A stretch of DNA of 45,514 nucleotides from Actinomycetota bacterium (GTDB lineage: Bacteria; Actinomycetota; Nitriliruptoria; Nitriliruptorales; Nitriliruptoraceae). Location of the stretch: the NCBI GenBank assembly GCA_018335555.1, contig JAGXST010000343.1, positions 1 to 45,514 on the forward strand, given 5' to 3'. Shown here piece by piece: positions 5,971 through 26,867 of this stretch. Numbering within the stretch: the stretch's first letter is position 1; each line of letters starts with the position of its first letter. Below the pieces are notes generated by a model that was not told the DNA's origin, ran no database searches, and saw only the letters and a program-made list of their open reading frames with translations. Both the position numbers and the translations under genes were made by a program.

Positions 5971-6381
5971 ATGAACATCGTCATCGGCTACGTCGACAAC
6001 GCGGCCGGAAACGCGGCGCTACGGGTGGGGTTGAGCGAGGCGGCGCTGCGCGGGGCGGCGGTACGCGTGCGACACGTGGTCCGGGTCGGTACCCACAACG
6101 AGCCGCCCGAGTCGATCGAGCGGATGCGCGGACGGCTGGAGCAGATCACCCGGCAGATCGCCTCGCAAGGGCTCGTCGGCGACGCCGAACTGCTGCTCGA
6201 ACGGGGCGAACCTGCCGACGCGATCCTCGACGAGGTTGTTCGGCTGCGCGCCGATCTGTTGGTGATCGGCTCCCGCCGACGCAGCCGGGTCGGCAAGCTG
6301 CTGCTCGGGAGCACGTCGCAACAGCTCGTGCTGCGGGCTCCCTGCGCCGTGCTGTCCTTGAGGCCGTCCGCCTCGCCTTGA
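5971..6381 (+). CDS. Universal stress protein UspA family
   Basis: MNIVIGYVDNAAGN...DLLVIGSRRRSRVGKLLLGSTSQQLVLRAPCAVL; G-x2-G-x9-G(S/T) nucleotide-binding motif. Confidence 0.9.
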   Translation: MNIVIGYVDNAAGNAALRVGLSEAALRGAAVRVRHVVRVGTHNEPPESIERMRGRLEQITRQIASQGLVGDAELLLERGEPADAILDEVVRLRADLLVIGSRRRSRVGKLLLGSTSQQLVLRAPCAVLSLRPSASP

Positions 6382-6402
6382 CCCGTTCCCCGTGACGTCA
6401 TA

Positions 6403-6413
6403 AGGTCATACCA
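6403..6413. promoter_or_regulatory. TGGT-N3-ACCA-like operator (AGGTCATACCA)
   Basis: 39 bp upstream of tctC-like ATG 6452. Confidence 0.5.
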
Positions 6414-6451
6414 TTCCACCCTTAACGGGCTCATCATCGCGAGGGAGCGGC

Positions 6452-7537
6452 ATGCGTTATCTGAAGAAGGGACGCCTGAACAAGACCGTCGGTGTCATGG
6501 CGGCGTTCGGGCTGATGTTGGCGGCTTGCGGAGGCGACGGCGACACCGCGACGCCCGCCGAGGATGCCGAGGAGTCACCCGACGCGGGTGCTGACGGCGA
6601 CGCCGACGGCGGGGGCGAGGGCCTGCTCGCCGGACAGACCATCACGTTCGTCGTCGGCGTGAGCCCGGGCGGCGGGTACGACTCGTACGCCCGCATGATC
6701 GCGCCCTTCCTCGCCGAGGAGCTCGGGGCCAACGTCGTCGTCGACAACCAGCCCGGCGCCGGTGGGCTCGTCTCGCTGAACAACCTCTACGCGGCCGAGC
6801 CGGACGGCACCACGATCGCGCTCGCCAACGGTTCCGGCACGGGCGGCAACGTGCTGGCCGGTGCCGAGGGCATGGAGTTCGAGTACGGCGAGTTCAGCGC
6901 GCTCGGCCGAGTGGCCGGCGAGCCGAAGGTGCTCGTCGCCTCGGCAGCCTCCGGCTACGAGTCGATGGAGGACCTGCTGGCCGACCCGGAGGGCTTCCGC
7001 TACGGAACGACCGGCCCGGGCGGCTCGACCCACACCGACGCCCAGCTCCTGCGTGCCAGCCTCGGCATCCCGGGCGACCTCGTGTCCGGCTTCGACGGCA
7101 GCGAGGAGATCGGTCTGGCCCTCGCCGCCAACGAACTGCAAGGCACCATCGGCACCCTCGACAGCCACGTCCCCGACATCGAAGCCGGCGACCAGGTCCC
7201 GATCGCGATGATCGCCGCCGAACGCGCCGAAGACTTCCCCGACGTGCCGACCGTGCTCGAATTCGTCGACGACGAGGACCGTCGCGTCATCGCCGAGACG
7301 CACATCGCCGTGATCGACCTCGGCCGAGCGCTGCTGGCGCCTCCGGGAATGCCCGACGACATCCTCGCCGAGTTGCGGCAGGCGATCGAGAACGTCTTCA
7401 CCAGCGAGGAGTTCCTCGCGGAGGCGGCGTCGCAGAACCGGCCGATCGGCTACCTGACCGGTGAAGAACTGGCCGAGCGGATCCAGGTCGTGGTCAACGC
7501 GCCCGAGTCGGTGTTCGAGGCCCTGCAGCAGCAGTAG
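6452..7537 (+). CDS. Tripartite tricarboxylate transporter substrate-binding protein (TctC/Bug family), lipoprotein
   Basis: Lipobox LAACGGDG; ITFVVGVSPGGGYDSYARMIAPFLAEELGANVVVDNQPGAGGLVSLNNLYAAEPDGTT. Confidence 0.93.
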   Translation: MRYLKKGRLNKTVGVMAAFGLMLAACGGDGDTATPAEDAEESPDAGADGDADGGGEGLLAGQTITFVVGVSPGGGYDSYARMIAPFLAEELGANVVVDNQPGAGGLVSLNNLYAAEPDGTTIALANGSGTGGNVLAGAEGMEFEYGEFSALGRVAGEPKVLVASAASGYESMEDLLADPEGFRYGTTGPGGSTHTDAQLLRASLGIPGDLVSGFDGSEEIGLALAANELQGTIGTLDSHVPDIEAGDQVPIAMIAAERAEDFPDVPTVLEFVDDEDRRVIAETHIAVIDLGRALLAPPGMPDDILAELRQAIENVFTSEEFLAEAASQNRPIGYLTGEELAERIQVVVNAPESVFEALQQQ

Positions 7538-7549
7538 GACCTTCCGGTA

Positions 7550-7585
7550 GCAGGGGTGGTGCGGCAGTATCCGCACCACCCCTGC
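7550..7585. terminator. Stem-loop between tctC-like and tctB-like genes
   Basis: gcaggggtggtgcgg-cagtat-ccgcaccacccctgc, perfect 15-bp stem, 6-nt loop, no obvious T-tract. Confidence 0.6.
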
Positions 7586-7632
7586 GGATACCGGATGTCA
7601 GCGGCGGTGCCGCGAGTCGAGGAGCAGCGCGA

Positions 7633-8202
7633 ATGGGTGGTCACGAGGTGGCGGCGGTCGGGCTGCGGCGCTGGACACCCTTGATCTTCGCACTCGCGCT
7701 GCTGGCGGCGGTCGGCTGGATGGTCTTCGTCGCGCTCGACTTCAGCGAACAGGCCCGTCGCATCCCGCTGGTCATCGGTGGGCCGACCGTGGCGCTGATC
7801 GCGATGCAGGTGATCCGCGTCGCCGCGTCACGCCCGGACCCGAGCCTCGAGGACGACACCGAGTTGGCCCGGCACGCTTCCGAGGCGGCCCACGTGCCGG
7901 AGCCGACGGCCACGGCGGCGGCGACCGAGCAACCGGTGGCAGCGCCCAGCAGGCGCGCCGAGGGGACCACGGGCCTGAAGTCCATCGGCTGGGTGCTGTT
8001 CCTGGGGGTGTCGGTGCTGTTGGTCGGCCTGCTCCCGACGGTGCCACTCTTCGCGGCCGTGTTCATGCGCCGCTACGGCCGTGAACCCTGGTGGCTCATC
8101 GGCCTGACGGTGGCCGGGACGCTGGCCGTGATCTACGGCTTCTTCATCCGCGTGCTCGAGGTCCGGATCTTCAACGGCTATCTGTGGGAGTGGCTCTCAT
8201 GA
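7633..8202 (+). CDS. TctB family small permease subunit
   Basis: Four hydrophobic segments, position between TctC and TctA. Confidence 0.75.
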   Translation: MGGHEVAAVGLRRWTPLIFALALLAAVGWMVFVALDFSEQARRIPLVIGGPTVALIAMQVIRVAASRPDPSLEDDTELARHASEAAHVPEPTATAAATEQPVAAPSRRAEGTTGLKSIGWVLFLGVSVLLVGLLPTVPLFAAVFMRRYGREPWWLIGLTVAGTLAVIYGFFIRVLEVRIFNGYLWEWLS

Positions 8203-8260
8203 GGCGCCATGATCACGACGGCCGCAGTGGCGCCGGGACCCCGGCCGGGGAGCACCGCTG

Positions 8261-9784
8261 ATGGCGCCGCTCGAGGGCCTCGCCCTGCTGAGTCCGACCG
8301 TGTTCGTCTACATGCTCCTCGGCGTGCTGTTCTCGACGGTGGTGGTGATCACGCCGGGACTCGGCGGGCTGTTCGCCATCGCGGTCATCCTGCCCTTCGC
8401 GCTGACCCTCGACCCGGTCGCCGGGATCGCGATGATCCTCGGCGTCAACGTCGTCAGCGGCACCGGCAACACGATCACGGCGATCCTGTTCGGCATCCCC
8501 GGCTCGGCGTCGGGGGTTGCCAGCACGTTCGACGGCTTCCCCATGTCACGCCGGGGGGAGGGCGTGCGGGCCGTGTCGGCCGGTCTCGTCGCCTCGGCGG
8601 TCGGTGGGCTCATCGGCGCGGCCGTGCTGGCACTCTCGCTGCCGGTCCTTCGACCGATCGTGCTGGCTTTCCGGCCCCCGGAATTCTTCGCGTTGATCCT
8701 CGTCGCGATGGTCTTCATGGCCTTCGTCGGCGGGGGCGATCCGCTCAAGGGTCTCATCTCCGGCGGTCTCGGACTGATGCTTGCGTTCGTCGGCCTCGAG
8801 AACAGCACCGCGCAGCAGCGCTACACGTTCGGCGAGCTCTACCTCTGGGACGGGCTGCCGCTCGTGCCGATCGTGCTCGGTCTCTACGCGATCACCGAGA
8901 TGCTGGCGTTGATCGAACGTGGCGGGGCGATCAGCGGCGCCAAGCACCCCGTGGGGTGGGCGCACCAGATGCTGCGCGGCACCAAGGACGTCTTCCGTCA
9001 CTGGCAGGCGACGCTGCAAAGTTCCATCGCGGGACTCTGGGTGGGCATGGCTCCCGGCCTTGGTGATTCGGCGGCGCAGTTCGTCGGCTACGCCCAGGTG
9101 GCCAAGACGTCGAAGAACCGCGAGAACTTCGGCAAGGGCGCGATCGAAGGCGTGATCGCGGCCGACGCCGCGACCAACTCCAAGGAGGGCGGGGCGCTGA
9201 TCCCGACCCTGGCGTTCGGCATCCCCGGCAGCTCGTCGATGGCCATCGTCATCGCGGCGTTCCTCGCCTTCGGGATCCAGCCCGGCCCCGAGATGCTCAC
9301 GCAGAACATCGACATCGTGTGGATGATCATCTGGATCCTGGTGTTCGCCAACCTGATCACGATGGTGGTCTGCCTGGCGGTCACGCCGGGCATCGCGAAG
9401 CTGACACAGCTCCGCGCCTCGCTGCTGGTGCCACCGATCCTGGTCCTGAGCGTGTTCGGCGCCTACTCCTCGTCGAGCCGTCTGGGCGACATCCTGACCC
9501 TGTTCGGGTTCGGGTTGTTCGGGTGGCAGTTGAAGCGCTTCGGCTACTCGCGAGCGATCTTCCTGATCGGCTTCGTGCTGGGGCCGATCCTGGAGTCGAA
9601 CTACCTGCTCTCCATGCGGATCTTCGGGCCGGCATTCCTGCGGCGGCCGATCACCCTGGGGCTGCTGTTGCTCCTGGTCCTGATCGTGGTGGGGCCGGCC
9701 ATCAAACGGCTGATCGTCGGGCTGCGCCGTCCGACGGTGCCCGAGAGCGCGAGCGGGGACGCCGACAGCAGGACCGACGCCTAA
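8261..9784 (+). CDS. TctA family large permease subunit
   Basis: VVVITPGLGGLFAIAVILPFALTLDPVAGIAMILGVNVVSGTGNTITAILFGIPGSASGVASTFDGFPMSRRGEG...LIPTLAFGIPGSSSMAIV. Confidence 0.95.
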   Translation: MAPLEGLALLSPTVFVYMLLGVLFSTVVVITPGLGGLFAIAVILPFALTLDPVAGIAMILGVNVVSGTGNTITAILFGIPGSASGVASTFDGFPMSRRGEGVRAVSAGLVASAVGGLIGAAVLALSLPVLRPIVLAFRPPEFFALILVAMVFMAFVGGGDPLKGLISGGLGLMLAFVGLENSTAQQRYTFGELYLWDGLPLVPIVLGLYAITEMLALIERGGAISGAKHPVGWAHQMLRGTKDVFRHWQATLQSSIAGLWVGMAPGLGDSAAQFVGYAQVAKTSKNRENFGKGAIEGVIAADAATNSKEGGALIPTLAFGIPGSSSMAIVIAAFLAFGIQPGPEMLTQNIDIVWMIIWILVFANLITMVVCLAVTPGIAKLTQLRASLLVPPILVLSVFGAYSSSSRLGDILTLFGFGLFGWQLKRFGYSRAIFLIGFVLGPILESNYLLSMRIFGPAFLRRPITLGLLLLLVLIVVGPAIKRLIVGLRRPTVPESASGDADSRTDA

Positions 9785-9793
9785 TTGCCGCAA

Positions 9794-9804
9794 TGGTTAG
9801 ACCT
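9794..9804. promoter_or_regulatory. TGGT-N3-ACCA-like operator (TGGTTAGACCT)
   Basis: ~95 bp upstream of cupin ATG 9899. Confidence 0.5.
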
Positions 9805-9898
9805 TTCCCGCCGTCGCTGGTAGGGTGGTCGCCACGTGGGTCGTGGGTCCGGTACCGGGCTGCGCGACGGACAATCCCAACGAGTGGAAGGGCCCGGT

Positions 9899-11038
9899 AT
9901 GGCCAAGGACGCGATCGTCAACGACACGATGGCGGCGAAGTTCGCCACCGAGAAGGAGACCCCCTACACCCGCTGGGTCGCCTCCGAGGGCCTGGAGATC
10001 ATCGCGGCCCACTACGTGCCGGACCTGCGGACGGTCGAGCTCAAGCCCTGGGACCGCCGGGGTGGCCACGGGGTCTTCATCAACCACGAGGCGTCGCGGA
10101 CGTCGAACGACTGCTATGTGTGCGAGATCCCGGCCGGCGGGAAGCTGGCGCCGCAGCGGCAGTTGTTCGAGGAGATGATCCTCGTCCTCGACGGGCAGGG
10201 CTCCACCCGCGTCTGGAACGACGCTGGTGCCGAGGTGACGTTCGAGTGGCAGGCGGGAGCGATGTTCGCCATCCCCCTCAACACCAACCACCAGCACTTC
10301 AACGGTTCGGGCCAGCGCGCGGCCCGGTTCGTCTCCTCGACGAACATGCCGCCGGTGATCAACCTCTACGACGACGCCGACTTCGTCTTCGGCACGGCCC
10401 ACGACTTCACCAACCGATTCGACGGGGAGCCGGACTACTTCGCCCCCAAGGGCGAGCAGAAGGGCCTGCTGCTCGACACCAACTTCGTCGCGGACGCGGT
10501 CAACCTCCCGCTCATCGAAGCCAAGGAGCGCGGCGCCGGCGGCGGGCACATCCGCTTCGCCATGGCGAAGGGCTCGATGAACAGCCACATCTCACAGTTC
10601 CCGACCGCGACGTACAAGAAGGCGCACCGTCACGGCCCCGGCGCCCACGTCATCATCCTCTCGGGCACGGGATACAGCATGATGTGGCCCGAGGGCGAAG
10701 AGCCGCGCCGCTACGAGTGGGGCCCCGGCGCCATGATCGTGCCGCCGAACATGTGGTTCCACCAGCACTTCAACAGTGGCGCCGAGCCCGCGCGCTACCT
10801 CGCGTTCAAGCACGAGGTCGTGTCGGTCCGAAACGCGCAGGGCGTCCCCAAGGCGTGGATCAGCCAGCGGATCGGCGGCGACCAGATCGACTATGCCGAC
10901 GAGTCCGAGCTCGTGAGGAGCACCTTCCGCGACGCGCTGGCCGAAGTGGGCCTCGAGCCGGCGATGGATGCGGTGTACGAGGCCGAACTCGAGGACCTGC
11001 CGCCCAAGCCGGACGAATCCGTCACCGCCGGCGCCTGA
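9899..11038 (+). CDS. Bicupin (two cupin domains) protein
   Basis: Two His-rich beta-barrel motifs: LVLDGQGSTRVWN...PLNTNHQHFN and KKAHRHGPGAHVIILSGTGYSMMWPEGEEPRRYEWGPGAMIVPPNMWFHQHFN. Confidence 0.85.
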   Translation: MAKDAIVNDTMAAKFATEKETPYTRWVASEGLEIIAAHYVPDLRTVELKPWDRRGGHGVFINHEASRTSNDCYVCEIPAGGKLAPQRQLFEEMILVLDGQGSTRVWNDAGAEVTFEWQAGAMFAIPLNTNHQHFNGSGQRAARFVSSTNMPPVINLYDDADFVFGTAHDFTNRFDGEPDYFAPKGEQKGLLLDTNFVADAVNLPLIEAKERGAGGGHIRFAMAKGSMNSHISQFPTATYKKAHRHGPGAHVIILSGTGYSMMWPEGEEPRRYEWGPGAMIVPPNMWFHQHFNSGAEPARYLAFKHEVVSVRNAQGVPKAWISQRIGGDQIDYADESELVRSTFRDALAEVGLEPAMDAVYEAELEDLPPKPDESVTAGA

Positions 11039-11048
11039 GGCCGCGCAC

Positions 11049-12632
11049 GTGACCGACCACGAGGTCCGTGACGTCGCGGACGGGCGGGTGTATTCCCCGC
11101 ACTCGCCCGACCATCACCACGACCACGACCACGACGCGCTGAGTCCGATCGAAGAGAACCCGATCTGGCAGCAGGACAACGTGATCCTGCACAGCGTGGG
11201 CATGGACGTCGGTTCGTCGGGGACCCAGGTCGTGTTCTCACGGCTGCACCTGCGACGGATCGGCGAGGAACTCACCAGCCGCTACATCGTCGTGCGGCGC
11301 GACACGCTCTACCACTCGCCGGTCGAGCTGACCCCGTACGCCAGTGACGAGCGCATCGACGCCGAGGCGCTCGGCGGGATCATCGACGACGCCTACGCCG
11401 AGGCGGGCGTGCGCCCCGACGACATCGACACCGGCGTCGTGATCCTGACCGGCGAGGCACTCCGTCGCCGCAACGCGCCACGGATCACCCAGGTTCTCGC
11501 CGAACGCGGCGGGGAGTTGGTCTGCGCCAGTGCCGGGCACAACATGGAGGCCATGCTGGCCGCCTACGGGTCAGGTGCGGCGAAGGTCTCCTACGAGCAG
11601 GGCAGTCGGCTGCTCAACATCGACATCGGAGGCGGGACCACCAAGCTCGCCGTGGTCGAACGTGGCCGGGTGCTGGCGACCGCGGCCGTCCACGTCGGCG
11701 GCCGTCTGCAGGTCGTCGACGACGAGGGTCGCATCGTGCGGCTCGACCCGGCCGGCCGCGAGCACGCGCGTCGCGCGGGCTTCGAGTGGGAGATGGGACA
11801 GCGGATCGACCCCCGCCACCTCGACGAGGTCGCCGAGGTCATGGCGGCTTCGCTGCTGTCGGCGATATGGGACCGTCCGCTCGATGCCGACGTGGAGCGG
11901 CTCTATCTGACCGATCCCATCGCGGATCTCGGTCCGATCGACGGCATCATGGTCTCCGGCGGCGTCGCGGAGTACGTCTACGACCGCGAGCACCGCCATT
12001 TCGGCGACCTGGGCCGTTCGCTCGGACTGGCGTTGCGGACGCGGCTCGCAGCACACGCCGTGCCGCTGTTGCCGGCGGGGGAGTGCATCCGCGCCACCGC
12101 GCTCGGCGCGTCGGAGTACAGCGTGCAGTTGAGCGGCAACACCGGTTGGATCTCGGATCACGACGCCATGCTGCCGCGGCGCAACCTCCAGGTCGTCAGG
12201 CCGCCCTACCGACTCGACGACGAGGTCGTCGCCGCCGAGGTCGGTGCGGCGATCCGTGACCACCTGGCGGTCTTCGACAAGGCGCACCCCGATGCCGAGG
12301 TGGCCCTCGCGCTGCACTTCTCGGGAGCCCCGGCCTACGAACGTCTCCGGGCCTTCGCCGACGGCGTCACCCAGGGCCTGCGTGAGCGCATCGAGGGGCG
12401 ACATCCTCTCTATCTGATGCTCGACGGCGACGTCGCCATGACGCTCGGGCGACTCCTCGAGGAGGAGTTCGCGGTGGCCGGCGACCTGCTGGTGATCGAC
12501 GGCCTCAGCCTGTGGGACTTCGATTTCATCGATCTGGGTCGCCTGCGTTACCCCTCCAACACCGTGCCCGTCACGATCAAGTCGCTGGTTTTCAGCGAGG
12601 ACCCGCGCCATGGCGGGAAGGCCAGGATCTAG
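11049..12632 (+). CDS. eutA: EutA-like ethanolamine ammonia-lyase reactivating factor (ATPase)
   Basis: VGMDVGSSGTQVVFSRLHLRR...CASAGHNMEAMLAAYGSGA...LLNIDIGGGTTKLAVVERGRVLATAAVHVGGRL...LSGNTGWISDHDAMLPRRNLQVVRPPY...FIDLGRLRYPSNTVPVTIKSLVF; pattern matches the recalled E. coli EutA sequence along its length; GTG start. Confidence 0.85.
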   Translation: MTDHEVRDVADGRVYSPHSPDHHHDHDHDALSPIEENPIWQQDNVILHSVGMDVGSSGTQVVFSRLHLRRIGEELTSRYIVVRRDTLYHSPVELTPYASDERIDAEALGGIIDDAYAEAGVRPDDIDTGVVILTGEALRRRNAPRITQVLAERGGELVCASAGHNMEAMLAAYGSGAAKVSYEQGSRLLNIDIGGGTTKLAVVERGRVLATAAVHVGGRLQVVDDEGRIVRLDPAGREHARRAGFEWEMGQRIDPRHLDEVAEVMAASLLSAIWDRPLDADVERLYLTDPIADLGPIDGIMVSGGVAEYVYDREHRHFGDLGRSLGLALRTRLAAHAVPLLPAGECIRATALGASEYSVQLSGNTGWISDHDAMLPRRNLQVVRPPYRLDDEVVAAEVGAAIRDHLAVFDKAHPDAEVALALHFSGAPAYERLRAFADGVTQGLRERIEGRHPLYLMLDGDVAMTLGRLLEEEFAVAGDLLVIDGLSLWDFDFIDLGRLRYPSNTVPVTIKSLVFSEDPRHGGKARI

Positions 12633-12681
12633 GCCTGGCCACAACCGGATCGACGTGGCGCCCGACGCGAAGGATTTCGAC

Positions 12682-13524
12682 ATGGACCAGGCCAGGACAA
12701 ACCCGCGTGTGGGCCTCATCGGACTCGGTCTGATGGGGGCGCCGGTCGCCCGCAACCTCCTGCGGGCCGGCCTGTCGTTGACCTGTCACGACCTCGATGA
12801 CGCAGCCGTGACGGCGGCGGTCGGTCACGGGGCGACCGCGGCCGACGACTCGGCGGCCGTGGCCGCGGCCAGCGACGTGGTGCTCGTGATCGTGCCGACG
12901 AACGACGACGCGCGAGCCGTCGTCGCCGGACCTGACGGGCTGTTGTCCGGTGCCGCTGCGGGTGCCGTCATCGTCCTGTGCAGTTCGCTCAAGCCCGAGA
13001 CCTGCGCCGAACTCGAGGCGCTAGGGCGTCAGAGGGAGGTCGAGGTCATCGACGCGCCCATGACCGGCGGCATCCGGGCGGCCGAAGCAGGCACGATGAA
13101 CCTGCTGGTCGGAGGTGACGCGGCGGCCCTGGAGCGGGCACGCCCCGCGCTCGAGCCGATCAGCAGCGCCATCCATCATCTCGGAGCGATCGGCGCCGGG
13201 CAGGTCGGAAAGACGGTCAACAACCTGATCCACTGGGGCGAGATCGTCGTGATCACCGAGGCGCTGGCGCTCGGCGCGAAACTCGGGGTCGACGTCAGCC
13301 GGATGCGGCAGGCACTCATGGACGGCAGCGTCGACAGCAAGACCCTGCGCGAGCTCGAGAAGATGAAGTTCACCTGGCATGCGAAGGACCTGGCGGACGC
13401 GCTCGCCATGGCGGCGACCGTCGACCACCCGATGCCGGCCGCCGAACTCGCCCGCGACGAGATGGTCGCCATCACCCCCGAGCGGGTGGCGCGGCTGCTG
13501 GAGGACCAGGGCTGGGACGGTTGA
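12682..13524 (+). CDS. NAD(P)-dependent 3-hydroxyisobutyrate dehydrogenase/2-hydroxy-3-oxopropionate reductase family
   Basis: VGLIGLGLMGAPVARNLLRAGLSLTCHD...DAPMTGGIRAAEAGTMNLLVGGD...GAGQVGKTVNNLI. Confidence 0.92.
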   Translation: MDQARTNPRVGLIGLGLMGAPVARNLLRAGLSLTCHDLDDAAVTAAVGHGATAADDSAAVAAASDVVLVIVPTNDDARAVVAGPDGLLSGAAAGAVIVLCSSLKPETCAELEALGRQREVEVIDAPMTGGIRAAEAGTMNLLVGGDAAALERARPALEPISSAIHHLGAIGAGQVGKTVNNLIHWGEIVVITEALALGAKLGVDVSRMRQALMDGSVDSKTLRELEKMKFTWHAKDLADALAMAATVDHPMPAAELARDEMVAITPERVARLLEDQGWDG

Positions 13525-13542
13525 TCCGGCTGCCGCCGCTCC

Positions 13543-14631
13543 TCAGTTGCGCACGTCCTCGAGGAACCACTCGGTCGGGAACGGGTGGCCGAGTCCGCGC
13601 TCACGGGCGAGCTGCAGGGTGATGCCGCCCACCGCCGCGAACTGCAGGCCCTGGGTGCCGGTCGTGACGAACAAGGTGATCTGCCGGTCCGAGGTTCGAC
13701 CGGGGTGGCGGCCGAGGTGCAGGTCGACGAGCGAGGGGTAGACCCCCCGCTCCGTGGATCGTCCGGCCGGGATGCGGCGCCGTTCGTCCGGGCGGCCCGC
13801 CACGTAGGCAGCCAGGCTGCCGCGGGGCCACTGCATGCCGGGAACCGCCACCCCGTGGGGGACGGTGCTCACGCCGAGCTGGACGACGGGATCGGCCAGG
13901 GCGAGTAGATCCTTGCCGAGCTCTCTTCGGGTCACGCAGGTCACGTGGGTGCCGGGCGACACCCAGGACGCATCGAACGTCGGTCCCATCGCGTCGGTCG
14001 CCGTCGCCACGATGTCGGCCCCGCGCACCGCTTCCTCGGCGCTGTCCACTGCGGTGACGCTCAGCCCCAGCTCTCGCTGTGCCGACTCGGCGAAGTGCTG
14101 CCGGTGAGCGGGCGTCGGGCTGAAGACCCGGACGTGCTCGAGCGAGCGGACCTCGGCGATCGCCTCGAGATAGCTGCGGGCCATGCCCCCCGACCCGAGC
14201 AGGCCAAGCGTGGCAGCGTTCTCGCGGGCCAGGACGTCGACGCCGATGCCCGCGCTCCCGCCGACCCGCATGTGCTGCAGGTACCCGTCCTGGATCAGCG
14301 CCAGGGGCTCACCGTTGCTGGTGGCGTACAGCAGGATCATCCCCGAGTAGGTGCCCGGTTCGACGCAGTGCTTCTCCTCGGTGCGTCCGTCGGGCCAGGA
14401 CACGATGTCTGACTTGAGGCGCGTGGCGAGGACTCCGTAGGTGCGGCAGGCGCCGCTCATGCTCCCGAACCGGTAGTAGTCGTCGTCGTTGCCCGTGGGC
14501 GCATACAGGTCGATGCGCGGGATGTAGGCCGCGTCGCCGGCCGCGAGGTCGGCGTAGCCCACCTGGAGCGCTCGTAAGGTGGTCGGCATGTCGAGCACCT
14601 GCCGAACGTCGTCGTTGCGCAGCAGCAGCAT
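13543..14631 (-). CDS. Ornithine cyclodeaminase/mu-crystallin family protein (copy 1)
   Basis: MLLLRNDDVRQVLDMPTTLRALQVGYADLAAG...MILLYATSNGEPLALIQDGYLQHMRVGGSAGIGVDVLARENAATLGLLGSGGMARSYLEAIA; good RBS GAGGAG before ATG 14631 (track ORF extends to 14655). Confidence 0.9.
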   Translation of the reverse strand: MLLLRNDDVRQVLDMPTTLRALQVGYADLAAGDAAYIPRIDLYAPTGNDDDYYRFGSMSGACRTYGVLATRLKSDIVSWPDGRTEEKHCVEPGTYSGMILLYATSNGEPLALIQDGYLQHMRVGGSAGIGVDVLARENAATLGLLGSGGMARSYLEAIAEVRSLEHVRVFSPTPAHRQHFAESAQRELGLSVTAVDSAEEAVRGADIVATATDAMGPTFDASWVSPGTHVTCVTRRELGKDLLALADPVVQLGVSTVPHGVAVPGMQWPRGSLAAYVAGRPDERRRIPAGRSTERGVYPSLVDLHLGRHPGRTSDRQITLFVTTGTQGLQFAAVGGITLQLARERGLGHPFPTEWFLEDVRN

Positions 14632-14661
14632 CGCGAACTCCTCGAGCACGGGCATGGCATA

Positions 14662-14672
14662 TGGTTATACCA
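14662..14672. promoter_or_regulatory. Perfect TGGT-TAT-ACCA operator
   Basis: In divergent intergenic region between OCD copy 1 and MFS-AKR gene. Confidence 0.6.
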
Positions 14673-14694
14673 ATGATCTCACAGATGGTGCGTC

Positions 14695-16968
14695 GTGACC
14701 GGACGAGGCGAGCGAAGCGAGGCTGGCACGGACCCCGTGCCGGCCTTCGCGCCGCTGCGGGTGCCCGCGTACCGCCGCGTGTGGTGCGCCATGACCGTCA
14801 GCCATCTCGGCACCTACCTGCAGTTGAGTGCGGCGCCCTGGCTGATGCACGAGATGACGCGGTCGCCGCTCATGGTCGCCCTGGTGACCTCGGCGCTGCT
14901 GCTCCCGCGACTGCTGTTGACGATCCCCGCGGGCGCGCTCTCCGACGTGATCGATCGCCGGACAATCATGCTGGTCGCGCAGGCGATCAGCGCCGTGGCG
15001 ACCGGGAGCCTGGCCGTCGTCGTGGCAGTCGGCGCGTTGAGCCCGACCTGGCTGCTCGGCTTCACCCTGCTGCTGGGCGTCGGTTCCGCCATCGACAAGC
15101 CGTCGTTCCAGACCATGGTGCCCGACCTGGTGCCCGGTCGGTTGCGGGCCCAGGCCATCACGCTCAACGCAGGCGCGCACCACGCCGCCCGGGTCGTCGG
15201 GCCGAGCCTCGGTGGCCTGCTGGTCGCACTCGATGTCGCCGAGTTCGCCTTCGCCGGCAACGCGCTGTCGTTCCTGCTCGTCATGGCGGTCCTCACGACG
15301 CTGCCGCGCGACCGGGAGACCGCCGGCGCCCGCCGGGCAGCGGGTACGCGGTCGGCAGTCGAGGGCATCCGGTTCGTCCGTTCCCATCCCGGCCTGCGCC
15401 GACTGCTCACGATCACGGCGTTCTTCACCCTCACCTCCGCCAGCGTGCAGGCGTTGCTGCCTTCGGTCGCGGCCGAGGACCTGCTCCTCGACGCCCGTGG
15501 GTTCGGCGTGCTGTACGGGATCTTCGGAGCCGGCGCACTTCTGGCGACCGTCTCGCGTGAACGGATGGCACTGTTGTGGGGGCCGCACATGGTGCCCGTG
15601 GCCATGGGCATCTTCGGCCTGGCGGCAATGGCACTCGGACTGGCCGACGGCAGCGTCGTCGCCGGGGTCGCCATCGCACTTGCGGGGTTGGCCTGGGTGT
15701 GGACCATGACCACGCTCAACGCCACCGTGCAACTGTCGGCACCGGCATGGGTCCGGGGGCGGGTCGTCGCGCTGTATGTCCTCGCCGTGGCCATGAAGCC
15801 GGTCGGAGCATTCATCAGTGGGGCCCTCGCCGAGATGCTGGGCCCGGGGACGGCGGTCACGCTGATGTCGGCCACGACGGTGGCGCTGGCCCTGGTCGCG
15901 ACCCGGGTCCGCCTCCCCGTGCTCGGCGATGCCGACTCCCAGTACCTGGAGCCCGAGATGCACGAACCGCCTGAGCCGAATGCCGTCGCCGACGTCGCCT
16001 GGCCATCCGTCGCCATTGGTGGGCGGGCCGTTCCGCCACTGGCTCTCGGATGTATGAGCATGACCCACCCCGGACGGTCGGAGGAAGAGGCTCGCGCCAC
16101 CCTTCGCCGCGCCTACGAAGCCGGCGTGCGGTTGTTCGACACCGCCGATCGATATGCCGACGGGCGCAACGAGCGGTTGGTCGCCGACGCCCTCGAGGAC
16201 GTCCGCGACGAGGTCGTCATCGCGACCAAGTTCGGTTTCGTGGGCAAGCCAGGTCGTGACACGCGGGTCGTGGACGGTTCACCCGGCCACGTCCGTGACG
16301 CCTGCGATGCAAGTCTTCGCCGGCTGCGCACCGACCGCATCGACCTGTGGTACCTGCACCGCCTCGACCCCATGGTCCCGGTCGAGGAGACCGTGGGCGC
16401 GATGGCCGAACTCGTCGAGGCGGGCAAGGTCGCGAGGATCGGGTTGTCCGAGGTCGACGTCGCGGCCCTCCGGCGCGCCGAGGCAGTCCACCCGATCGCC
16501 GCGGTGCAGAACGAGTTCAGCCTCTCGACAAGAGGCGCCGAGTCGGAGATGCTGCCGGCGTGCCGGGCATCGGGGGTCGCTTTCGTCGGCTACAGCCCGC
16601 TCGGCATCGGCCTGTTGACGGGCTGCTACCTCGCGCCAGAGGAACTGCCCGACGGCAACCGCCTCGCGCGCGGGCCCCGCATGGACGAGGCGCACCGGGC
16701 GGCGAACCTCGAGCGTGTCGCGGCGCTGCGCCGCCTCGCCGACAGTTGCGGCATGACCCCGGCGCAGCTCGCTCTGGCCTGGGTCCTGGCGCAGGGTGCG
16801 ATCGCTCTGCCAGGGAGTGCGCGCCGCCGGCATCTCGACGAGAACGTATGGGCTCTGAGGCTGCGACCCGACGCGGACGTCATGCACGCCCTCGAGGCGC
16901 TGTTCCCCGAGGGCGCGATCGCCGGGGCGCGCAAACCTCCTCCGGGACTCGCCCTGACGCCGGGGTAG
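14695..16968 (+). CDS. MFS transporter (EntS-like) fused to C-terminal aldo/keto reductase domain
   Basis: Single 757-aa frame: N-term MFS (FAPLRVPAYRRVWCAMTVSHLGTYLQLSAAPWLMHEMTRSPLMVALVT), C-term AKR (VPPLALGCMSMTHPGRSEEEARATLRRAYEAGVRLFDTADRYADGRNERLVADAL...VQNEFSLSTRGAESEMLPACRASGVAFVGYSPLGIGLLTG). Confidence 0.88.
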   Translation: MTGRGERSEAGTDPVPAFAPLRVPAYRRVWCAMTVSHLGTYLQLSAAPWLMHEMTRSPLMVALVTSALLLPRLLLTIPAGALSDVIDRRTIMLVAQAISAVATGSLAVVVAVGALSPTWLLGFTLLLGVGSAIDKPSFQTMVPDLVPGRLRAQAITLNAGAHHAARVVGPSLGGLLVALDVAEFAFAGNALSFLLVMAVLTTLPRDRETAGARRAAGTRSAVEGIRFVRSHPGLRRLLTITAFFTLTSASVQALLPSVAAEDLLLDARGFGVLYGIFGAGALLATVSRERMALLWGPHMVPVAMGIFGLAAMALGLADGSVVAGVAIALAGLAWVWTMTTLNATVQLSAPAWVRGRVVALYVLAVAMKPVGAFISGALAEMLGPGTAVTLMSATTVALALVATRVRLPVLGDADSQYLEPEMHEPPEPNAVADVAWPSVAIGGRAVPPLALGCMSMTHPGRSEEEARATLRRAYEAGVRLFDTADRYADGRNERLVADALEDVRDEVVIATKFGFVGKPGRDTRVVDGSPGHVRDACDASLRRLRTDRIDLWYLHRLDPMVPVEETVGAMAELVEAGKVARIGLSEVDVAALRRAEAVHPIAAVQNEFSLSTRGAESEMLPACRASGVAFVGYSPLGIGLLTGCYLAPEELPDGNRLARGPRMDEAHRAANLERVAALRRLADSCGMTPAQLALAWVLAQGAIALPGSARRRHLDENVWALRLRPDADVMHALEALFPEGAIAGARKPPPGLALTPG

Positions 16969-24987: not shown

Positions 24988-25734
24988 TCACCCGGACGCC
25001 GTGCGCCGTGCCGGCTTCTCGCTGCTGATCCGGCGGGCGGTCCGGCCGAGGTGCGTGCGCATCACGTTCCTGGCTTCGCGGACATCGCGCTCGGCGATGG
25101 CCGCCACGAGACGTCGATGCTCGTGGATGCCAGGGTCGCCCATGTGCGGGTCGATCGCCTTGGCCTTGACCAGCGACCGCAGCATGGGCTCCTGGAACGC
25201 CTCGGTGACCAGGCTGATCGCGACGTTGTGGGCGCTCTGCGCGAGGCGGATGTGGAACTCCGCGGACAGCGCGACGTCGAACGTGCCCTGCCGCAGCGCC
25301 TGCTCCGAGCGATCGCAGATCTCGGTGAGCTCGGCGAGATCCTCGGTCGTGGCCCGCTCGCACACCAGGCGGAGCGACCCGAGTTCGAAGACCATGCGGG
25401 CCTCGGTGATGTCGGCAGGGGACACCTGCGACATCATCAGCAGGTTGGCCAGGCCTTCACTCACGTGGTCGGTGTCGGGAGCGGTGACGAAGGCGCCTCC
25501 GTGCGCCCCGACACGGATGGCGACCAGACCGTTCGCCTCGAGGACCCGCAGGGCGTCGCGAACCGTCACCCGGCTCACCCCGAGCTGTGTGGCCAGTTCC
25601 CGCTCCGGGGGGAGCCGATCCCCGGGGCCGAGCTCGCCCGACTCGAGGGCGGCGTGGATCTGGGCGACGACGTCGGCGGAAGCGCGCGCCGTGGACACCC
25701 TCGTGAATAGTTCGTTGCCCACCGGTGCAGCCAT
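24988..25734 (-). CDS. GntR family regulator, FadR subfamily (FCD domain), tandem paralogue
   Basis: GELGPGDRLPPERELATQLGVSRVTVRDALRVLEANGLVAIRVGAHGGAFVTAP; FCD domain. Confidence 0.9.
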   Translation of the reverse strand: MAAPVGNELFTRVSTARASADVVAQIHAALESGELGPGDRLPPERELATQLGVSRVTVRDALRVLEANGLVAIRVGAHGGAFVTAPDTDHVSEGLANLLMMSQVSPADITEARMVFELGSLRLVCERATTEDLAELTEICDRSEQALRQGTFDVALSAEFHIRLAQSAHNVAISLVTEAFQEPMLRSLVKAKAIDPHMGDPGIHEHRRLVAAIAERDVREARNVMRTHLGRTARRISSEKPARRTASG

Positions 25735-25752
25735 CCCCAACCCCTGGTCAAA

Positions 25753-25763
25753 TGGTCCTACAT
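25753..25763. promoter_or_regulatory. TGGT-N3-ACCA-like operator (TGGTCCTACAT)
   Basis: Divergent intergenic region between GntR gene and bicupin; possible autoregulatory site. Confidence 0.4.
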
Positions 25764-25814
25764 TATGCTAGTCTGCCACAAGGATACGCACGCAGCCGAG
25801 CAACTGGAGACAAC

Positions 25815-26867
25815 ATGGGTAAGAAGGGGCGGACATTCGTTCGCGGCCTCGTGTCCGAAAAGTACGGGCTGGGTGACTTCCGGCGTGCGCAACTCGACAA
25901 CGAGCGGGTTCGCAACGACGAGGTCGTGGTGGACGACGCCAGCGTCGGCCACTCCGGTGACTCGGCGGACTCCCGAACCTGGTGGCGCATCGGGCCTGGC
26001 GACGAGGAATTCCTCACCCAGACCATCCAGGTCCACTTCGTGGAACTGCCGCCGCACTCCGCCAACCACGGACACGGCCACCAGAACGAAGCGGTGTTCT
26101 ACATCCTCGAGGGCAAGGGTTACGAGGAGCACGACGGCAAGCAGTACCGCTGGGAGAAGGACGACCTGGTCGTCGTTCACACCGACTCGGTGCATCGCCA
26201 CTTCAACGACAGCGACGAGAAGGCCGTTGCGCTGGTCATGAAGGCGAAGTCCACCTGGATGTTCATGGGGCTGATCCAGCAGGCGAAGAGCGGCCCGAAC
26301 GGAGCTCCCGACCCCGCTCCCGTCCCCAACGAGGAGCGGTTCGGCGAGCGCGAGGACTGGTCGCGGATCTGGACGCCTGGCGTCCTCGACATGAACAAGG
26401 TCGTCAAGCCCGAACACACCAAGTGGGAGACGACCCGCGACGGCCGCGTCCGTCAACTCGCCCAGCCTGGTATGGACGTCCGCTGCCACAGCGTCGACGT
26501 CTACCAGCAGGAGATCCCGTCCGGGAGCCGGTCGGCCAAGCACTGGCACATGGCGGACGAGGTGGTCTACATCCAGGAGGGCAGCGGTTACAGCCTGCAC
26601 TGGGAGGTCGAAGCGGAGATCGCCGACAAGTACTACGCGCGCATCGCCAAGGAGCCGACCCGGCACGAGTTCACCGCCGGTGACACCGTCTACATCCCGC
26701 AGAACACCATTCACCAGCACTTCGCGGCCGATGGCACGCCAGTCAAGTTGCTCTCGGTCCAGAACCGGTTGTTCCGCTACCTCGGCTACGACCAGGTGCA
26801 CTATCTCGAGGACGCACCCGAGTACACCGAGTCGCAGCAGCAGCAGTCGGTGCCCGCAGGCGTCTGA
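25815..26867 (+). CDS. Bicupin protein (second copy in window)
   Basis: VELPPHSANHGHGHQNEAVFYILEGKGYEEHDGKQYRWEKDDLVVVHTDSVHRHFN and SGSRSAKHWHMADEVVYIQEGSGYSLHWEVE...FTAGDTVYIPQNTIHQHF. Confidence 0.88.
   Translation: MGKKGRTFVRGLVSEKYGLGDFRRAQLDNERVRNDEVVVDDASVGHSGDSADSRTWWRIGPGDEEFLTQTIQVHFVELPPHSANHGHGHQNEAVFYILEGKGYEEHDGKQYRWEKDDLVVVHTDSVHRHFNDSDEKAVALVMKAKSTWMFMGLIQQAKSGPNGAPDPAPVPNEERFGEREDWSRIWTPGVLDMNKVVKPEHTKWETTRDGRVRQLAQPGMDVRCHSVDVYQQEIPSGSRSAKHWHMADEVVYIQEGSGYSLHWEVEAEIADKYYARIAKEPTRHEFTAGDTVYIPQNTIHQHFAADGTPVKLLSVQNRLFRYLGYDQVHYLEDAPEYTESQQQQSVPAGV

Follow-up and report, generated by a model that had tools for sequence, protein, structure and literature searches.

A bicupin-linked branch of the EutA family: a possible ATP-driven helper of a cupin metalloenzyme encoded near aromatic-acid genes

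EutA has been described as the reactivating factor of ethanolamine ammonia-lyase (Mori et al., 2004, cited in PMC5821096), and it spends ATP on removing the damaged cofactor from its enzyme (PMC5821096). Here we report on a EutA-like gene with a different partner, located in a stretch of 45,514 nucleotides from a member of the Nitriliruptoraceae (Actinomycetota; contig JAGXST010000343.1 of assembly GCA_018335555.1), which is called the window throughout this paper. The gene (positions 11049-12632, + strand, GTG start) encodes an ASKHA ATPase and begins 10 bp after the stop codon of a bicupin gene (9899-11038, +); the initial annotation of this DNA had recognized the adjacency correctly and had counted the gap as 11 bp. 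Like EutA, the encoded protein matches the Pfam family over its full length, carries the ATP-site motifs and belongs to a small operon with one partner enzyme. It differs from EutA in that the partner is a bicupin, and in that it falls into a separate clade in which none of the sampled genes (0/38) lies beside eutBC. Such a branch suggests that a quite different kind of enzyme has an ATP-driven helper that has not been described before. It had been proposed from the window alone that the EutA-like protein may act on another enzyme or be the sign of a pathway not yet described, and this proposal is supported by the separate clade, the absence of EutB and the conserved bicupin.

The EutA-like protein covers positions 3-474 of the 475 in the PF06277 model with 373 bits against a gathering cut-off of 27, which bears out its earlier assignment to the EutA-family ATPases. 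With none of the four NCBIfam EutA equivalog models does it reach the cut-off, the scores being 304, 238, 206 and 179 bits against 598, 769, 952 and 799, respectively. A maximum-likelihood tree was calculated for 52 proteins, comprising 38 cupin-type sequences and 14 EutB-linked ones from enterobacteria, clostridia, Listeria, Fusobacterium, haloarchaea, five EutB-bearing relatives of the same phylum and Paenibacillus. The two kinds form two clades with support of 100/100; all 14 EutB-linked genes fall outside the cupin-linked clade, and the window protein falls within it and thus does not group inside canonical EutA. Judged from its sequence, the window gene is a true PF06277 homologue of a separate clade. 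Both kinds occur together in the genome of Paenibacillus thalictri, the canonical gene beside EutBC and the cupin-type gene beside a bicupin.

The ATP motifs are intact in the window protein, including phosphate-1 (D53 G55 S56), phosphate-2 (D192-T197, K199) and adenosine (G304 G305). D53, G55, D192, G194-G196, G304 and G305 are invariant across both clades and T197 nearly so, and a fixed difference separates the two: S56 and K199 are present in 38/38 members of the cupin clade in place of the T and N found in 14/14 EutB-linked sequences. The AlphaFold model of the protein (predicted local distance difference test, pLDDT, 72; predicted template modelling score, pTM, 0.57) gave fold matches to the ASKHA proteins Ppx/GppA, HgdC, PilM and MreB. 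This model and that of the bicupin (pLDDT 68) are both of middling confidence and were used for fold only. A sequence search of the PDB with the EutA-like protein returned no EutA relative, just short MreB and GppA matches.

The association with a bicupin is conserved far beyond the genus. A scan of close relatives, with one genome per species, yielded 12 loci from Streptosporangiaceae, Thermomonosporaceae, Geodermatophilaceae, Pseudonocardiaceae, Alphaproteobacteria and Paenibacillus (taxonomic breadth being read from the named loci), and a bicupin adjoins the EutA-like gene in all 12, which span three phyla; in Paenibacillus the match starts about 570 bp past the bicupin. Across these loci, the bicupins are 72-87% identical to the window protein and the EutA-like proteins 51-70%, the bicupin being the better conserved. 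Among the 38 genes of the cupin clade, the neighbour is a bicupin in 35, a monocupin with UbiD in two and no cupin in one, and pairs with a bicupin were found in Actinomycetota, Alphaproteobacteria and Paenibacillus. Three arrangements of the pair were observed, with the bicupin first, with EutA first (L008, L009, L107) or with divergent genes (L012), and this variation indicates that the pair survived rearrangement. The subtypes of the two proteins, designated w, a and b, match within pairs, even in genomes with two pairs (L014, L009, L040); the exception is the basal pair L116 of the wider alphaproteobacterial set, whose cupin is a fragment close to a contig end. The symbiotic plasmids of Phyllobacterium and Sinorhizobium carry two cupin-type EutA genes each. 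The conserved unit is therefore bicupin plus EutA-like gene. Members of the clade in Phyllobacterium are annotated as EutA, that is, as reactivators of a B12 enzyme; since the clade has another constant partner, the function given in annotations of this kind is probably incorrect.

The distribution across genomes agrees with this separation. Pfam scans of the window turned up no B12-enzyme family and no microcompartment family, consistent with the earlier statement that eutB, eutC, other B12 enzymes and microcompartment genes are absent from it. The source genome, a metagenome-assembled genome of 77.5% completeness, holds one EutA, and no EutB was found in the rest of it; as the genome is incomplete, this absence is weak evidence, and relatives were therefore examined. 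Two genomes of the same genus, both 98% complete, contain the bicupin-EutA pair and lack EutB, a third (G052, one contig) contains neither bicupin nor EutA, and EutB is absent in 9 of the 12 relatives' genomes. Two larger samples were compared, 297 genomes of the same phylum and 289 alphaproteobacteria. EutA was found in 10/297 genomes of the phylum, five of which (501-532 bits) have EutB alongside; the other five (300-399 bits, one with two copies) lack EutB and coincide exactly with the five bicupin-bearing genomes (p 1.4e-8 for the bicupin-EutA overlap). Taken together, the EutA genes of this sample are associated with EutB as well (p 2.4e-5), owing to the five canonical ones that have EutB alongside. 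In the alphaproteobacteria, EutA occurs in six genomes and the bicupin in seven, including all six of the former (p 9e-12), and EutB, present in 24, overlaps with EutA once, showing no association (p 0.41). In 23 alphaproteobacterial genomes (e.g., G431 and G399) EutB is present and no EutA-family gene was found, so that ethanolamine ammonia-lyase in these bacteria often seems to operate in the absence of a PF06277 EutA. Four small alphaproteobacterial genomes of 2.4-3.6 Mb (G412, G421, G518 and G524) contain at least six bicupin matches and two to four EutA-like genes each.

The partner protein matches the Cupin_2 and Cupin_1 families (PF07883/PF00190), and its two cupin domains are evident from a Pfam match on the N-terminal cupin together with two barrels in the AlphaFold model and fold matches to bicupins, the model resembling oxalate decarboxylase and MncA. 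In the C-terminal cupin, 25/25 sequences of types w and b have H243, H245, H288 and H290, and 24/25 have H250; all 17 w-type bicupins keep H243, H245 and H288 (plus H250 and H290) as putative metal-binding histidines in one cupin, and the HxH pair is absent from their N-terminal cupin. With three to four histidines in this cupin, the protein is probably a metalloenzyme. Cupins with a three-histidine site include known ring-cleaving dioxygenases, and in salicylate dioxygenase these histidines are located in the N-terminal cupin (PMC4019311), in contrast to the C-terminal position in the window bicupin. With the gentisate, salicylate and 1-hydroxy-2-naphthoate dioxygenases the bicupin shares the two-cupin architecture, at least three histidines in one cupin and a setting of aromatic catabolism, whereas the sequence similarity is very weak, as also seen in the match to the gentisate dioxygenase 3bu7 (E 0.005). 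The site is compatible with ring-cleaving dioxygenase activity, which falls short of proof; the bicupin is plausibly an Fe(II)-type ring-cleaving dioxygenase of an aromatic-acid pathway, and possibly a Ni or Co enzyme instead. A cupin gene near a EutA gene is also known from the eut operon in the form of EutQ, but both the bicupin and the monocupins hit general cupin models (Cupin_2/Cupin_1 and others) and gave no match to a EutQ family model, and a EutQ relation was rejected. In a metagenome-assembled Actinoallomurus genome the bicupin gene (L010, 6495-7607) is interrupted by an in-frame stop codon some 85 codons in, although the match is full-length; this may be an assembly error or a pseudogene.

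The genes around the pair point to aromatic-acid catabolism. Most w-type loci or genomes encode a Rieske oxygenase alpha subunit with 74-78% identity between phyla, and its nearest solved structures are 9ina and 7fhr (putative phthalate 4,5-dioxygenase); the gene lies on a separate contig (C57) in the source genome, whereas in G009 and G076 it shares a contig with the pair at a distance of up to about 17 kb. A neighbouring LigJ-like amidohydrolase is close to 4-oxalomesaconate hydratase (PDB 2gwg, 544 bits), and further neighbours encode a LigK-like RraA protein, a zinc alcohol dehydrogenase, an alpha/beta hydrolase, 4,5-dihydroxyphthalate-decarboxylase-like proteins (PDB 9jp7) and TctABC or other importers. 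None of the aromatic-type neighbour genes was found at eight EutB-linked loci, save one weak RraA match. Homologues of the hydratase and aldolase of the LigJ/LigK meta-cleavage tail for protocatechuate and gallate, and of the Rieske oxygenase and decarboxylase of the phthalate 4,5-dioxygenase/dihydroxyphthalate decarboxylase pathways, thus cluster with the pair, but no LigAB/DesB-type dioxygenase occurs among the scanned cluster genes: at E 1e-8, a Pfam scan of 16 frames from the part of the cluster before TctABC in the same-genus genome G009 gave no LigB, intradiol or glyoxalase-type ring-cleaving family. We know of no EutA-like/bicupin module in any of these pathways. The riboflavin catabolic operon was considered and rejected as a counterpart; it is similar in parts, but contains an extradiol catechol dioxygenase and no EutA. 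As for the carboxylated or amine substrate proposed in the initial annotation, the amine is unsupported and the neighbours point to aromatic acids. A literature search retrieved no text linking EutA to such cupins or to aromatic catabolism, with subscription journals thinly covered.

Our preferred reading, to which we assign a probability of about one half, is that the EutA-like protein uses ATP to activate or reactivate the metal bicupin. The linkage, its distribution and the separate clade were established here, and the client relation, the metal and the substrate are inferred. That it acts on the bicupin is the simplest interpretation, because the bicupin is its one constant neighbour and because some genomes have several bicupins for a small number of EutA-like genes. 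An ATP-driven restoration of the metal site is proposed by analogy to the removal of damaged cofactor by EutA. A two-protein module of bicupin and EutA-like protein would then replace the relation between EutBC and EutA in a different chemistry. In the pathway envisaged, import by TctABC would be followed by Rieske oxygenation, decarboxylation and opening of the ring, with the bicupin as the metal dioxygenase, and then by hydration through the 4-oxalomesaconate-hydratase-like enzyme and LigK-like aldol cleavage. The EutA-like protein, with its EutA/HSP70-like ATP site retained, would bind the bicupin and pull it open using ATP, releasing an inactivated state (an oxidised or lost metal, or a trapped suicide product) that is replaced thereafter, parallel to the action of EutA on damaged cobalamin. 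The wider generalization, that the whole branch consists of ATP-driven reactivases (or metal/ligand exchangers) of cupin metalloenzymes, most likely aromatic ring-opening dioxygenases, is put forward more tentatively and has the odds somewhat against it.

Several observations weigh against a reactivated ring-cleaving bicupin. The a-type bicupins are without H250, and H243/H245 are also lost in some members; with such decay of the metal histidines, not every partner can be a three-histidine enzyme. The structural model fits bicupins generally, and the similarity to gentisate-type dioxygenases amounts to 28 bits against the MabB model, whose cut-off is 650. Two genes of the clade (L105, 4703-8255; L111, 3528-8215) stand by the monocupin and UbiD genes, the one clade gene without any cupin neighbour adds to these, and the genome G534 has the bicupin and no EutA match. 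In addition, a second bicupin family in the window (25707-26867, +) is an equally good candidate for ring cleavage in the same island; it shows weak similarity to gentisate/5-aminosalicylate dioxygenases and is 68-70% identical to its counterparts in L007 and L056.

Among the competing explanations, the one that comes nearest, although we think it unlikely, takes the two proteins as subunits of one ATP-dependent enzyme, in which the ASKHA subunit spends ATP at each turnover and the cupin does the chemistry, as in acetone/acetophenone carboxylase and HgdC-type activators. The near-obligate pairing with matching subtypes, the K199 fixed after the phosphate-2 motif and absent in EutB-linked EutA, and the matches in fold to HgdC and other ASKHA proteins that use ATP would all fit such an enzyme, but the two proteins diverge at different rates at the same loci, and the many bicupins for few EutA-like genes in G412, G421 and G524 fit a shared helper better than fixed subunits. 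More doubtful still is a metal-loading chaperone that supplies the cupin with Ni, Co, Fe or Mn and does not reactivate it. Nickel or cobalt genes do lie close by at three loci, namely NikR and NixA beside EutA_a in Phyllobacterium (L014, 8911-13293), a NikR-like gene close to the pair in L009 (16739-17290) and a NicO-family nickel transporter gene directly behind EutA_b in L111; they are a hint at the metal and nothing beyond, being confined to these three loci and missing from the window and the Actinomycetota loci. Nor did a metal-binding motif come to light in the core of the EutA-like protein, although no search was aimed at one.

A linkage at the pathway level only, with the EutA-like protein as an independent enzyme such as a kinase of an intermediate that is co-regulated with the bicupin, is improbable to a further degree. 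ASKHA families include many small-molecule kinases, and the occurrence of the clade by UbiD/monocupin genes would suit this explanation; yet the bicupin is constant among the loci while pathway genes such as those for the Rieske and LigJ-like proteins vary in their presence, and the matching of subtypes would be hard to explain. The Rieske oxygenase as a possible client of the EutA-like protein was rejected, since several loci have the pair and no Rieske gene. Finally, despite the full-length match to the same Pfam family, we consider it very improbable that this is an ordinary EutA that reactivates a B12 enzyme, ethanolamine ammonia-lyase or a different one, whose genes lie elsewhere: near-complete genomes carry the EutA-like gene without EutB, no B12-enzyme family was found in the scanned cluster genes of G009, and canonical EutA acting in trans was rejected on the clade, the distribution and the Paenibacillus genome in which each kind stands by its own partner.

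If the EutA-like protein does rescue a cupin, the principle of the ATP-driven reactivase would hold for mononuclear metal enzymes as well as for cobalamin enzymes; this would be, to our knowledge, the first ATPase-assisted repair beyond B12 enzymes within the EutA family. It would also offer a way into an aromatic-acid pathway that is widespread but uncharacterised, and whose examined cluster lacks any classical ring-cleaving enzyme.

The remaining genes of the locus are arranged around the pair on the + strand. Upstream (6452-9784) lie genes for a tripartite tricarboxylate transporter, including a TctC-like substrate-binding protein (6452-7537; PF03401, 89 bits), a TctB-like small membrane subunit (7633-8202; PF07331, 31 bits) and a TctA-like large membrane subunit (8261-9784; PF01970, 405 bits), the last being 96% identical to its counterpart at the same position in G009. 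Downstream follows a dehydrogenase of the 3-hydroxyisobutyrate dehydrogenase (HIBADH)/tartronate-semialdehyde reductase family (12682-13524; PF03446, NAD_binding_2, 131 bits; PF14833, NAD_binding_11, 49 bits). The three genes earlier placed at 9899-13524 downstream of TctABC were confirmed as open frames there, and the order bicupin-eutA-HIBADH held only in part: bicupin-EutA is conserved in three phyla, but HIBADH lies directly behind the EutA-like gene only in the window and in G009 (78% identical, same place). In these two it belongs to the same operon as the pair. Elsewhere it is absent, displaced or unrelated, with a 58% identical relative at 6 kb in Actinomadura alba and a 33% relative before one pair in Phyllobacterium, and HIBADH as a fixed member of the module was rejected as it is conserved within the genus only. 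A promoter and terminator scan of 6300-14700 gave no signal above chance. Further downstream, a single open frame (14695-16968, +) joins a major facilitator superfamily transporter to an aldo/keto reductase, and this long frame recurs in G009 (76%) and G076 (56%).

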